From positions 248,001 through 312,000 of the forward strand of contig JAHBWZ010000002.1 of the NCBI GenBank assembly GCA_019636755.1: a DNA stretch of 64,000 bases. Direction: 5' to 3'. Of this stretch, positions 16,406-20,906 are shown piece by piece. The translations under genes were made by a program, and so were the position numbers. Every line of letters begins with the position of its first letter. Positions within the stretch are counted from its first letter, which is position 1. Source of the DNA: Phycisphaeraceae bacterium. Lineage in GTDB: Bacteria > Planctomycetota > Phycisphaerae > Phycisphaerales > SM1A02. The notes below the pieces were generated by a model. It was not told the DNA's origin. It searched no databases and saw only the letters and a list, made by a program, of their open reading frames with translations.

Positions 16406-18609
16406 CCTCCGCGGCCGGCGCGACGCCGGATCCCGCACGAAGCGCTGAGGCGCACCGTGCCATGATCCGCTTCGCCCGCGCGCAGGCGGAGGCCATTCCC
16501 GAGGATGCGCGCCACCCGGAGCGCATCGGGCGCTACCGGATTCTCGGGCTGATCGGGCGCGGCGGCATGGGCCTCGTGTATCGCGCCACGCTCGATCATC
16601 CGCAGCGGGAAGTCGCGCTCAAACTCCTGGCCGGCGGCACGCTCGGCAGCCGGCGCTGGACGCGGTTCCGTACCGAGGTGGAGTGTCTGGCGCAGCTCGA
16701 CGATCCGCGCATCGTCCGGATCCTGGACGCCGGCACCGCGCGGGTCGGCGGGGAGACACGGCCCTTCCTGGTGATGGAACTCGTGCCCGGTGCCGTTCCG
16801 ATCACGGCCTGGGTCGAGCGGTCATCGCCGTCGATCCCGGTCCGGATCGCCGTGCTCGCGGAGATCGCCGAGGCTGTCGGACACGCGCATCAGCGCGGCG
16901 TCATCCACCGCGACATCAAGCCTGCGAACGTCCTGATCGATGACCTCGGCCGCCCGCGGATCGTCGACTTCGGCGTCGCGCGCGGAAGGGAACACCTCGA
17001 CCCGCAGGATGTCACCCGCGACGGTGATCTCGTCGGCACGCTGGAGTGGATGAGCCCGGAGCAGCTCGTCGACGGCGCTGCCGTCGACACGCGCAGTGAC
17101 GTCTATGCACTCGGACTGCTGGCGCACCGCGTGCTGACCGGACGTCCGTCGTTCGCGGCCGCATCCAGCGTGGAGACCATGGTCCGTGCCATCCGTTGCG
17201 GATCGATCCCGGCGCTGCGCGCCGTCGACCGGCATCTTGATCGCGATCTCGACCTCGTGATCCGCACCGCGACCGACCCGGACCGCGAGCGCCGCTATGG
17301 CACGGCCGGCGAGTTCGCCGCCGACCTGCGCGCCGTGCATGAGCATCGCCCCATCGCCGCCAGGCGACCGACGCTCGCCTACGTCGCGTCACGCCTGATC
17401 CGCCGCCATCCGTCGCGCTCGATCATCGCACTGCTCACGGTGACCGGCGTTGTTTCCGGCGCGGTGATGCTCTGGTCCGCGGAGACGGCACGGCGAAGCG
17501 AAGCGGGTCGCGCCGACACGGGCCTGCAGTTCCTCCACGCCGTTCTTCGGAAGTTCGATCCGGCCGTACTGTCCCACGCGGACCAGGCAGGCATCGCGCG
17601 GATCATGGATGAACTCGAGTCTCACGCCCGTGCCGTGTCCTCTCCGCATCCGACGGCGATGGCAAATGCCATGGTCCTGATCGGCCTGGCGCGACATCGT
17701 TTCGGGCTGCATGAGGACGCGGGACGCGCACTGGAGGTTGCCGTCGCCGCCAACCGCAGCGCGCTGCCGCCGGCCCACCACCAGGTTCTTCACTCGACAC
17801 TGCTCCTGATCGATCAGCGCATGACGGTCGGCCGACACGATGACGCGGAGCGCCTGGCTCGAGAGGCGCTTGCCGCAATCGCGCAGTCCCGCCTGCGACA
17901 GGAGCCTGACATGCCGCTCCAGCTCCGGGCACGTCTGGCCCGCCTGGCCGCATTGCGCGGCGCGCTGGACCATGCCGCCGCCGGCATGAACGCGATCATC
18001 GCGGAGATCGACGCCCGTCCGCATCCGACCAACTCTCTGCGCATCGAGCTGCTCGGCGACCTCGGCGTCATTGAGCGGCAACGCGGCGATGACGATCGCT
18101 CCGCCGCGCTCCTGGCCGAGGCGCTCCGACTGCGCACGGCCAACGATCCGGCCGGACAGGATCCGGAGACCCATCGCACCGCGGCGCAGTGTGCGCACAC
18201 GCTGGCTCGCCTCGGCCGGTGCACGGAGGCGATGTCGCTCCTGCTGGATGCGCTCGCCCCGGCGCTCACCTCAGCCGGTCCTCAGAGCGCGATCGTCGCG
18301 CGGATTGCCGGCCTTCTCGCCCTGCTGGACGAGAGTGCCGCGGCCGGTGAACCGTCGATCCCGGCCGTGTTCGAGCCCGGTCCGTTCGATCGCGCCCGCG
18401 TACACGCGGTCGCCGTGCGCGCGGGGCGGACAGCGCTCGCGCGCCGGCTGCGGGAGCCGAGCGACGCGCCCATGGTGTCCTCGGATCCGGTCGTCGCACT
18501 CCGCATGATCCGTGATGCGGAGGGCGACGATGCCGCCGCGGCCGCGGCCGATCGGCTGCGCGCCGAATGGACCCGGATCGACGCAGCGATCCGCGCGCTC
18601 CTGCGCTGA
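16402..18609 (+). CDS. transmembrane Ser/Thr protein kinase with TPR-like output domain
   Basis: This is a 735-residue Hanks-type kinase. The glycine loop GRGGMGLVY begins at 52, the ATP-binding Lys is Lys74, the catalytic HRD is 169-171 (HRDIKPANV) and DFG starts at Asp189. All catalytic residues are intact. One transmembrane helix (IIALLTVTGVVSGAVMLW) lies near residues 345-362. The remaining about 370 residues are helical and TPR-like. The start is fixed by the ATGA overlap with the sigma gene; the frame is open further upstream but lies inside that gene. It likely senses an extracytoplasmic signal and regulates the cognate sigma factor (inference). Confidence 0.9.
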   Translation: MTSAAGATPDPARSAEAHRAMIRFARAQAEAIPEDARHPERIGRYRILGLIGRGGMGLVYRATLDHPQREVALKLLAGGTLGSRRWTRFRTEVECLAQLDDPRIVRILDAGTARVGGETRPFLVMELVPGAVPITAWVERSSPSIPVRIAVLAEIAEAVGHAHQRGVIHRDIKPANVLIDDLGRPRIVDFGVARGREHLDPQDVTRDGDLVGTLEWMSPEQLVDGAAVDTRSDVYALGLLAHRVLTGRPSFAAASSVETMVRAIRCGSIPALRAVDRHLDRDLDLVIRTATDPDRERRYGTAGEFAADLRAVHEHRPIAARRPTLAYVASRLIRRHPSRSIIALLTVTGVVSGAVMLWSAETARRSEAGRADTGLQFLHAVLRKFDPAVLSHADQAGIARIMDELESHARAVSSPHPTAMANAMVLIGLARHRFGLHEDAGRALEVAVAANRSALPPAHHQVLHSTLLLIDQRMTVGRHDDAERLAREALAAIAQSRLRQEPDMPLQLRARLARLAALRGALDHAAAGMNAIIAEIDARPHPTNSLRIELLGDLGVIERQRGDDDRSAALLAEALRLRTANDPAGQDPETHRTAAQCAHTLARLGRCTEAMSLLLDALAPALTSAGPQSAIVARIAGLLALLDESAAAGEPSIPAVFEPGPFDRARVHAVAVRAGRTALARRLREPSDAPMVSSDPVVALRMIRDAEGDDAAAAAADRLRAEWTRIDAAIRALLR

Positions 18610-19259
18610 TCCCGCGGGCCGATGCAGCGCGCGCGGGGCGCCCGAGGGCGCGACCGCACGACGACCTCGGGGTGCCTGGCCCACCCCCGCCCGGGACATC
18701 GCCCGCTCGATCCGTCGCCCCCCCCGGTGGGGGAGGGCGCAGGGCGCGGGCATGGGTACGAGCACACGCCACGGGTTCCGCGTGCGCTTCGCCGGAGTTC
18801 CCCGTCTCTCTCCAGGGCCGCGGTCCTCCGAGCGACCGCGGACCCGAGGCATCGCCACACCGGGTCGTGGGAGGGGGACCCCGCCGCGGGACCGCCGCTG
18901 GTCCCGCGCCGATCGACGCACAGGACCACACGGGCTCGTCCTCCGGGACCGAGCCCTGCCGGCACGGTGGACTGGATGGGGATCGGGAGGTGCCCGCACG
19001 GGCGCCTCCCTCATTCCCTGGACGCAACGCGCGCGCGCGCCGGCGCGCGAACGGTCGGCGGTGCCGCGACCGCCGGGCGTCATCGTGGACGTTGACGGGC
19101 AGGGGTGTCGGCGGACGGGATCCGCCGCTTCCGGGTAGCCTGAAGGGACGTGGTCCGCGGAACCCGGGAAGGGGCCACGGCGCGCCGACGCGCGCACCCG
19201 CCCGTCATTCCGCGGCCTGCGCGGCTGATGTGCCCGGCCCACCGGGCAGGGAGGCGTCC
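18610..19259. other. 650-bp interval without a recognised gene
   Basis: Frames stay open here on both strands only because the DNA is extremely GC-rich; the translations are Arg/Pro/Gly-rich with no family resemblance. The interval holds a homopolymer C tract near 18718, an alternating CG run near 19029-19049 and a strong hairpin at 18985-19010. I see no RNA gene. Confidence 0.5.
18985..19010. terminator. 12-bp near-perfect hairpin downstream of the kinase gene
   Basis: GGGAGGTGCCCG pairs with CGGGCGCCTCCC, with a single G-T wobble and a minimal loop. It lies 375 nt after the kinase stop and is followed by TCATTCC rather than a T-tract. Confidence 0.4.
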
Positions 19260-20375
19260 ATGCTCGGCGCGCTGACGATTCCGCGGCTGCTCCAGAAGAT
19301 GCGGGAAGTGGAGGCGTCCGACCTTCACCTCAAGTCGGGATCCCCGCCGGTCCTGCGCGTCGCCGGTGAACTGCGGCGCGTGGACTGCCCTGCGCTCGAG
19401 GCAGAGGACGTCCGGCAGCTCCTGGCGCCGATCATCCCGGACCATCTCCGGCCGGCCCTGGAGTCGCGCGGCGGCATCGACTTCTCCCACCACGAAACGC
19501 AGGAGCACCGCTTCCGGTGCAGCGTCTTCCACGCCGGGCACGCGCTGCACGCCGCCATCCGGCGCGTCAATCCGAAGATCCCGTCGTTCGAGGAACTTCA
19601 CCTGCCGCCCATCTACGAGCGCCTGATGGAGACGACGCACGAGGGACTTGTCGTCGTCTGCGGCGTGACCGGATCCGGCAAGTCATCGACGCTGGCGGCG
19701 ATGATCGATCACATCAACCGGACGCAGGCGTGCAACATCATCACGGTGGAGGATCCGGTGGAGTACCTCTTCCGTCCCGCGAGTTCCTACGTGTCGCAGC
19801 GCGAGATCGGCATCGACATCCCCGACTTCGCCAGCGCGCTCCGCGCGGCCGTCCGGCAGGACCCGGATGTCATCATGATCGGCGAGATGCGCGACCGGGA
19901 GACGATGCTCGCGGGCATCCAGGCCGCGGAGACCGGGCACCTGGTCTTCGCGACGCTGCATACCGCGGACACGATGCAGTCCTTCGCCCGCATCCTGGAG
20001 TTCTTCGACACCAAGGATCACGGGTTCATCCGGTCCAGTCTCGCCGCCGGGCTCCAGGGGGTGCTCGCGCAGCGCCTGCTCCCGTCGGTCAAGCCCGGTG
20101 CGCAGCGCGTGCCCGCCACCGAGGTGCTGCTCAACAACTCGACGGTCAGCGAGAAGATCCGTGAAGGCGAGGATGATGACCTGCCTGCCGTCATGGCCGG
20201 GTCGCTCCACGAGGGCATGCATGACTTCACGACCAGTCTGGCACAACTGGTGGAGAAAGACTGGGTGGACCTCAAGGTCGCCGAGCGCTTCGCACCGAAT
20301 GCAGAGGCACTGCGCTCCCGCGTGCGCGGCATCTCCGTCAAGGCAGACACGCTGATCTCTCGAGTCAAGCACTGA
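19260..20375 (+). CDS. pilT: PilT-family twitching ATPase
   Basis: This 371-residue ATPase of the secretion superfamily retracts type IV pili. The N-terminus LLQKMREVEASDLHLKSGSPP is the PilT signature. Walker A GVTGSGKS is at residues 135-142, and the Asp box, Walker B and His box read AVRQDPDVIMIGEMRD and ATLHTADT. The start ATG 19260 has AGGGAGG at 19248-19254. The frame is open 231 codons further upstream, but that part is Arg/Pro-rich and not homologous. The C-terminal portion is diverged from the usual AIRNLIREGK region. No other pil gene is adjacent. Confidence 0.93.
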   Translation: MLGALTIPRLLQKMREVEASDLHLKSGSPPVLRVAGELRRVDCPALEAEDVRQLLAPIIPDHLRPALESRGGIDFSHHETQEHRFRCSVFHAGHALHAAIRRVNPKIPSFEELHLPPIYERLMETTHEGLVVVCGVTGSGKSSTLAAMIDHINRTQACNIITVEDPVEYLFRPASSYVSQREIGIDIPDFASALRAAVRQDPDVIMIGEMRDRETMLAGIQAAETGHLVFATLHTADTMQSFARILEFFDTKDHGFIRSSLAAGLQGVLAQRLLPSVKPGAQRVPATEVLLNNSTVSEKIREGEDDDLPAVMAGSLHEGMHDFTTSLAQLVEKDWVDLKVAERFAPNAEALRSRVRGISVKADTLISRVKH

Positions 20376-20552: not shown

Positions 20553-20587
20553 AAAAAAGGCCCGGCGAGCATCGCTGCTCGCCGGGC
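20553..20587 (-). terminator. strong intrinsic terminator, minus strand
   Basis: On the minus strand GCCCGGCGAGCA and TGCTCGCCGGGC form a perfect 12-bp stem around a 4-nt loop, followed two bases later by six T residues. This is the only textbook Rho-independent terminator in the window. It points away from the minus-strand unit at 20588-20872 toward pilT. Confidence 0.85.
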
Positions 20588-20638
20588 GGATGTCGTCCAG
20601 GACTGCACCCCCGTGTCAATCCCGTCGGTGCACGGGTG

Positions 20639-20680
20639 TTACGCGTGCAGTCCCTTCACACAGTCACGAAAATAGGTCAC
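20639..20680 (-). CDS. 13-residue micro-ORF behind a near-maximal Shine-Dalgarno sequence
   Basis: A GTG start at 20680 opens a 14-codon frame ending in TAA and encoding MTYFRDCVKGLHA. Seven bases before the GTG lies GGAGG, within AAGGAGGTGATCCAG, which is the exact complement of the last 15 bases of typical bacterial 16S rRNA. Few genes have such extended pairing. The last coding codons (GGA CTG CAC) sit in a stem with sequence downstream of the stop. I do not recognise the peptide. It may be a real micropeptide, a leader peptide or a ribosome-binding RNA element. Confidence 0.45.
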   Translation of the reverse strand: MTYFRDCVKGLHA

Positions 20681-20878
20681 TGGATCACCTCCTTCTCAAG
20701 AAGAGCCTTCCGGCGGTCGCACGGGTGACGCCGTGCCGCCGGCTGTCTTCCCCTCGGGCGTCCCCAAGGGCTCATCGCCCGCGTCCCTGAGGAACGGGAC
20801 GCGCTCGACCGTCGCCTCAGCCCGTCGGATGGCCCGGGTTCTCCGGGGTTCCGCCGGACTGCGTGCGGCGATACGGTG

Positions 20879-20906
20879 ATCATCGCCCGGATCGGGCTGA
20901 AGTCAA
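20879..20906 (-). promoter_or_regulatory. promoter for the small RNA/micro-ORF unit
   Basis: On the minus strand TTGACT (20901-20906) and GATGAT (20879-20884) are separated by 16 bp. TTGACT matches the -35 consensus at five of six positions and GATGAT the -10 at four of six. The predicted start is near 20872. Confidence 0.4.

Follow-up and report, generated by a model that had tools for sequence, protein, structure and literature searches.

A free-standing structured RNA of the Planctomycetota that carries a full-length Shine-Dalgarno sequence and a conserved micro-ORF

Can the output of a gene be translation itself, rather than the peptide that is made? The question is raised by a locus on the minus strand (20906-20553) of the window, the whole 64,000-nucleotide stretch of a Phycisphaeraceae genome that was analysed, which holds promoter-like boxes, a structured RNA, a GTG micro-ORF and a terminator (Table 1). 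Behind it stands an RNA that is mostly single-copy, is kept widely in the phylum, has a ribosome-binding sequence of full length and encodes a peptide that drifts. A first-pass annotation had described a self-contained unit that might be an unannotated small RNA, a micropeptide gene or an orphan attenuator. The promoter-like boxes and the terminator were found where it had placed them and recur in relatives, so that the self-contained unit was borne out. Folding of the minus-strand stretch gave -186 kcal/mol with a z-score of -5.4, none of 100 shuffled sequences being equally stable; together with covarying stems and the lack of an Rfam match at gathering score, this agreed with an unannotated structured RNA. 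The terminator had been called the only textbook intrinsic one of the window, a fair description given that scans of the remainder returned six terminator-like sites, all weaker. A chance origin of the locus was rejected because its sequence and frame, its stems and its promoter and terminator are found again in relatives. The locus is well supported as an RNA gene of about 320 nt, free-standing, with its own promoter and terminator, and part of a family present in much of the Planctomycetota.

Table 1. Features of the minus-strand locus, in positions of the window
Feature	Position	Strand	Remark
Promoter	20879..20906	-	-35 TTGACT 20906-20901, spacer 16, -10 GATGAT 20884-20879
Putative transcription start	near 20872	-	
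Conserved 5' domain, CCGGAGAACCCGG at 20846-20834	20781..20872	-	by eye, upstream sequences of 29 loci
Hairpin A, GACG loop 20762-20759	20752..20770	-	98.6% of cells paired; 7 of 8 pairs changed on both sides
Hairpin B, lower and upper stem	20710..20742	-	99.1% and 84.9% of cells paired
Full-length Shine-Dalgarno sequence AAGGAGGTGATCC	20682..20694	-	complements the 3' tail of 16S rRNA
Micro-ORF GTG...TAA, 13 codons, MTYFRDCVKGLHA	20639..20680	-	10-14 codons in 91 of 93 copies
Hairpin C	20599..20654	-	5' arm GGGACTGCAC 20654-20645 in the ORF; 3' arm 20608-20599
Hairpin C inner GACG loop	20626-20623	-	
Intrinsic terminator	20553..20587	-	12-bp stem, 10 G-C pairs, 4-nt loop, CTTTTTT (T6)

The most telling feature of the locus, missed by the first-pass annotation, is the full-length Shine-Dalgarno (SD) sequence AAGGAGGTGATCC (20694-20682) directly before the GTG. 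The 3' end of the genome's 16S gene is the exact complement of this 13-mer, and across the 4.1-Mb genome the exact 13-mer occurs at two places, the 16S antisense and the minus-strand locus, rising to 15 places when one mismatch is allowed. Extended SD sequences in general are not unheard of, as Staphylococcus aureus is reported to rely on them in a 2026 paper (PMC13009471). In another source, Planctomycetes are named among the phyla with species of small SD-gene fraction, one planctomycete genome being tabulated (PMC5397173), and to that extent a full-length SD in this phylum is the more striking.

To define the family, a DNA search of 101 related genomes was performed, which returned many chance matches at E values up to 1 plus a clear set. 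Two models were used, R1 describing the core of the RNA and R2 a shorter part from the SD to hairpin C, the latter built from 70 sequences (training alignment A3, 70 of 94 copies). Of 38 matches in one search, 23 were used, with six excluded as duplicate genomes and nine as scoring below 24 bits; L070 was excluded as a near copy of L071. R1 matched 77 of 392 genomes of the phylum (E 0.01). R2 matched 123 of 294 Planctomycetota genomes, 122 of them with a single match, and 87 of the 124 Planctomycetota matches scored at least 36 bits. An R2 match was absent from 171 of the 294 genomes, some of which belong to the same family and order as the window, and its absence may reflect either loss or divergence. 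Good matches were mostly labelled Phycisphaerales, Phycisphaeraceae, Phycisphaerae, Planctomycetota, Planctomycetia or Gemmataceae, with two exceptions, and one locus labelled Phycisphaerales (L156) scored 176.3 bits, as did L026 of a genome of the same family.

The two differing labels came from control genomes outside the Planctomycetota that had been chosen for their SD pattern, 23 of 39 of which matched R2. The loci labelled Deltaproteobacteria (L123) and Cyanobacteria (L179) are clear copies, at 77.6 and 78.7 bits, and possibly derive from mislabelled or contaminated assemblies; the other 21 control matches reached 35.2 bits at most. Within the phylum of an Azospirillum genome (G525), 10 of 150 genomes matched R2, the best at 33.7 bits, and the eight matches inspected were all super-SD ORFs of 14-25 codons. 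Because low-scoring matches outside the Planctomycetota are super-SD ORFs, R2 matches below about 36 bits may mix two kinds.

Conservation of the structure was assessed in an alignment (A1) of the window with 27 of 29 loci from relatives (L019-L047), L043 being excluded as a terminator match only and L034 as partial. By eye, these loci have in common, with single-locus exceptions, the place of the promoter, the 5' domain, hairpin A with its GACG loop, hairpin B, the SD, the ORF, hairpin C and the terminator. Pairing was present in 89.4% of cells over 34 pairs in six helices, while structures slid along the same alignment paired in 48.6% or less of cells. Changes on both sides were found in 25 of the 34 pairs, as in CCTT-GACG-AAGG (L046) versus AGCTC-GACG-GAGCT (L031). 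None of 500 shuffled controls reached the observed value on any of five covariation measures, a type of test that relatedness inflates, and more weight was given to pair types. The inner stem of hairpin C (helix 5, 169-173/188-192) is weak, with 60% of cells paired. The covariation check on related loci proposed in the first-pass annotation thus yielded covarying stems and a conserved ORF, the opposite of the lack of conservation that it had named as grounds for rejection.

Promoter-like matches of at least 9 of 12 positions were found in 16 of 28 loci versus 1 of 372 control windows, with the -35 box of relatives 212-277 nt 5' of the SD and two of the 28 loci without a site. Many of loci L019-L047 show, by eye, a -10 box GATAAT or GATACT followed within a few bases by TATCGCGG, possibly a constant transcript start. 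A terminator-like site within 170 nt 3' of the stop codon was present in 85 of 89 loci versus 69 of 316 control windows.

These boundaries bear on whether the RNA serves an adjacent gene. The earlier statement that no gene of normal size lies on the same strand before or after the unit is doubtful, as a 516-codon same-strand ORF (22570-21020), for which no Pfam match was found, ends 113 nt before the -35 box. The gene that follows the locus in the window is convergent, a T2SSE-family ORF on the plus strand (18567-20375). When ORFs of 70 aa or more were clustered (BLASTP, E 1e-10) over 21 loci, the window and 20 others of 8-10 kb, no cluster was common to more than 4 of them. Extended gene order was common only to the pairs L087/L096 and L093/L095, and partly to the window and L082. 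Two upstream same-strand ORFs recur in L079, L080 and L081, three loci of two families. The suggestion of an orphan attenuator, in which the ORF would encode a leader peptide for a gene downstream, draws on the placing of the 3' half of the ORF in a hairpin that is followed by a terminator, as in attenuators. It is very improbable in view of the lack of a shared neighbour and the convergent gene that follows, and hairpin C (20654-20599) and the terminator (20587-20560) do not overlap in the window. A leader-peptide attenuator was not supported by this gene context, no conserved downstream same-strand gene being found in the 21 loci. The lack of a shared neighbour, together with an own promoter and terminator, speaks against a conserved gene regulated in cis and favours a role in trans or one directed at the ribosome.

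Whether the micro-ORF is real was judged by its frame. With a start required 8-19 nt from where the SD core begins and a length of 7-45 codons, an ORF was found in 93 of 94 copies, and was 10-14 codons long in 91 of the 93, 19 codons in one and 33 in another. In the other two frames the first stop fell at 10-14 codons in 0 of 93 (+1) and 1 of 93 (+2). The 93 copies are not independent, L073, L074, L075 and L130 for example being near-identical. Start codons were GTG in 70, TTG in 12 and ATG in 11 copies, and stop codons TAA in 37, TGA in 31 and TAG in 25. Among 20 R2 matches outside the training set, mostly weaker (25.1-42.7 bits), 18 had 10-16 codons and the others 18 and 33. Since frame and length are kept both across the copies and in matches outside the training set, the sequences indicate that the micro-ORF is very probably translated. 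A fortuitous ORF on an untranslated RNA that pairs with the 16S 3' tail, as a decoy or a 16S maturation factor, would account for a structured RNA that complements the full tail, but is hard to reconcile with a start codon at the usual spacing, an in-frame stop at near-constant distance, the use of three different stop codons and length changes by whole codons, and is considered improbable.

The constraint on the peptide is weak. For 24 near pairs pN/pS was 0.69, with 0.61 in the 5' part of the ORF and 0.77 in the last four codons. A core DC[TMI][KR]GL[HR] is recurrent in the window's order, while peptides differ between families (MTNLCDCTKGLHT, MMIVRGSIRRWVR, MEYVCISRRGGSA, MCSGNQVRLA). The loci of family f23 (L060, L066, L069, L071 and others) start with TTG and encode peptides that do not resemble the window's (MMIVRGSIRRWVR, MFHHGDSARGSES), so that the ORF is kept and the peptide changed. 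One locus (L236) has a 33-codon ORF with a cysteine-rich insertion, in which the frame is kept and the extra codons precede the ending RIGLR-stop. The proposed micropeptide gene therefore held as regards the reading frame and not as regards the peptide, which diverges. As a full explanation, with the 10-14 aa peptide as gene product and the RNA serving as its small mRNA, well translated and structured in the 5' part, it has in its favour the kept frame and length, the recurrent core and a pN/pS below 1, a value that leaves room for peptide function. It is nevertheless rather unlikely, as there is little in common among the peptides of other families, the residues that are shared fall on the RNA arm and on fixed nucleotides (Cys being encoded by TGT 83 times and by TGC 16 times), and about 180 nt of covarying structure would be unneeded in a small mRNA.

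The 3' half of the ORF is also part of the RNA structure. The first-pass annotation had noted its pairing beyond the stop, and this was seen in the window, where GGGACTGCAC pairs with GTGCAGTCCT downstream of the stop, and recurs in relatives. The 5' arm of hairpin C begins 13 nt before the stop codon in the window. A strong hairpin C stem was present in 68 of 93 copies, the other 25 having none by the score used, and among the 68 the distance from the start of the 5' arm to the stop is 12 or 13 nt in 48 copies and 9-16 nt in 62. The position of the arm had a spread of 2.6 nt relative to the stop versus 8.9 nt relative to the start, a figure raised by the two long ORFs. In 84 of 93 copies the best stem exceeded those of shuffled tails, and 88 of 93 have a motif G[AG]CGG or GACGA no more than 45 nt from the stop. 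These positions indicate that it is the stop codon that places hairpin C. In one genus (L030, L035, L036, L044 and L045), an additional stretch downstream, GTGCAGCCTTGATACA, could form an alternative to hairpin C by pairing with more of the ORF (TGTATCAAGGGGCTGCAC).

Sequestration of the SD was examined by folding. Its predicted accessibility was ordinary, with a mean unpaired value of 0.36 versus 0.33 for the whole transcript in 25 loci, and no common lock was found by folding of these loci, the partners of the SD being scattered. The case for sequestration by the hairpin-B loop is weak, as the longest complement averages 5.4 versus 4.5 in shuffles; TCAC is present in the hairpin-B loop region in 13 of 28 rows. 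A pairing of GATGATCACC with the SD in the window was dropped, since GATGATCACC shares positions with the -10 box and would be absent from the transcript. As predictions, the calculations speak neither for nor against a lock.

Conservation, frame, geometry, 16S complementarity and the lack of a common neighbour are the basis on which about an even chance is given to the reading of a free-standing RNA used by being translated, in which the SD would capture ribosomes, a stop-placed hairpin would act as a switch, the RNA would act in trans and the peptide would be mostly a by-product. From sequence, we infer that the locus is transcribed, captures ribosomes and switches at the hairpin. The full-length SD would capture 30S subunits, and the ribosome would run the short ORF and terminate at a point where the 5' arm of hairpin C, which consists of the last four codons of the ORF, is held open. 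From the size of the ribosome footprint, a terminating ribosome is expected to cover this arm. The ribosome-engaged form would have hairpin C open and its 3' arm exposed, while the ribosome-free form would have it closed, displaying the GACG-capped stem, and the two states would be set by ribosome supply. Acting in trans, the RNA may be a gauge of, or a sink for, initiation-competent ribosomes, with the peptide largely incidental. A conventional trans-acting base-pairing sRNA, in which translation would be only stabilizing, would agree with a mostly single-copy RNA with its own terminator, and a translated mini-ORF may shield mRNA from endonuclease attack, as described for the axe-txe minigene (PMC8708949). 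Such protection has no need of a stop-placed hairpin, and little credence is given to this alternative. The Planctomycetota RNA looks like a real, undescribed RNA that is kept to engage ribosomes.

Known RNA families were searched for likenesses. No Rfam 15 match at gathering score was obtained over the window or over the loci of nine relatives, and the possibility raised at the outset that a known family covers the region was not realized at that score. A tmRNA was rejected, with no match in the window and the genome's tmRNA located on another contig at 162 bits. No paper on the Planctomycetota RNA was among the matches listed from open-licence PMC, and by the Rfam and literature searches made the RNA constitutes a new family. 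Among the best matches below threshold in the window were those to CC2171 (20.6 bits), anti-hemB (19.0 bits, terminator region) and Ms_IGR-5 (18.5 bits). The gathering score of CC2171 (RF01867) is 75, and was not reached by the window or by relatives, the best of which scored 31.6 bits; that of Ms_IGR-5 (RF02471) is 45, and was not reached by the window.

Ms_IGR-5 was sampled in the Actinomycetota, where 37 of 149 genomes matched at E 0.01, 14 of them above the cut-off, and 30 loci were examined. These loci (L303-L332), filed as sRNA, hold a recurrent super-SD ORF of 12-14 codons. An ORF follows the SD in 20 of the 30, with 12-14 codons in 18 of the 20; among the remainder, eight have no start in range and two no SD by the rule used. 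In the other frames, 3 and 3 fall within a wide range of 8-30 codons. The strongest ORFs end in EVAA-, EVAS- or EVAG-like sequences. In 8 of the 16 loci that were read, a stem arm GGTGRCTRC.. (for example GGTGGCTGC) begins 13 nt ahead of the stop, and its partner, for example GCAGTCACC, ends 57-82 nt after the stop. Like the Planctomycetota RNA, Ms_IGR-5 has a super-SD, an ORF of 12-14 codons and, in part of the loci, pairing of the 3' half of the ORF with downstream sequence, but its peptide is another one (of ..REVAA-stop type) and no counterpart of the Planctomycetota 5' domain is shown.

For CC2171, 27 of 150 genomes matched, four above the cut-off, and 25 of 30 loci were examined. An ORF of 14-26 codons, starting with GTG or ATG, was found in 22 of the 25, and frame controls were less clean, with 14 and 6 of 22 in the same wide range. 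A super-SD before the micro-ORF and, in loci read by eye, terminator-like hairpins downstream are shared with the Planctomycetota RNA, whereas the ORF is longer and the peptides are others (MSHC.. among them). Recurring super-SD short ORFs, MSHC.., MSRKVLE.., MSSEIS.., MSSDFVF.. and MSYLKRCHLAGIAR, were also seen in Alphaproteobacteria (the loci of L107-L180 outside the Planctomycetota, and L333-L354). They are apparently wider kin of Rfam CC2171, and no Rfam match was found at the place of the super-SD in 12 loci of alphaproteobacterial type. In a study of Sinorhizobium, the 23-aa SEP1 has the top translation efficiency among novel sORFs, and 13 novel sORFs are reported inside annotated ncRNAs (PMC10117765). 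This is a possible outside hint, as SEP1 may or may not be the rhizobial super-SD ORF.

With R2, no Actinomycetota locus scored above 27.8 bits and no Pseudomonadota locus above 33.7 bits, scores that the SD may largely explain. The likeness between the Planctomycetota RNA, Ms_IGR-5 and CC2171 is one of architecture only, and homology is not established by these scores. A wider reading, held to be slightly short of an even chance, is that the three and their kin form an unrecognized bacterial class of ribosome-engagement RNAs, in which translation itself would be the function. All three, apparently free-standing, would offer the ribosome an anti-16S sequence and a throw-away ORF of 10-26 codons, and termination on the 5' arm of a hairpin would be common to those of Planctomycetota and Actinomycetota. 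If so, two members of the class are currently filed as sRNAs. The likeness makes the idea testable in Mycobacterium smegmatis and Caulobacter, for which genetics exist.

Among known systems, structured dual-function sRNAs such as SgrS and RNAIII encode a small protein, and functions of both peptide and pairing are known. The Planctomycetota RNA is likewise a structured RNA that has coding capacity for a small product, but differs in an SD that is the full 16S complement, a hairpin-placed stop and a drifting peptide. In a trpL-type leader, a short ORF overlaps a hairpin with a terminator downstream, an arrangement found in the Planctomycetota RNA as well; unlike such attenuators, it has no common downstream gene in the 21 loci. 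Bacterial minigenes, axe-txe and lambda bar among them, resemble it in having a very short translated ORF. Theirs, however, is a two-codon ORF that acts in cis on the following gene, whereas the Planctomycetota RNA has 10-14 codons and is free-standing.
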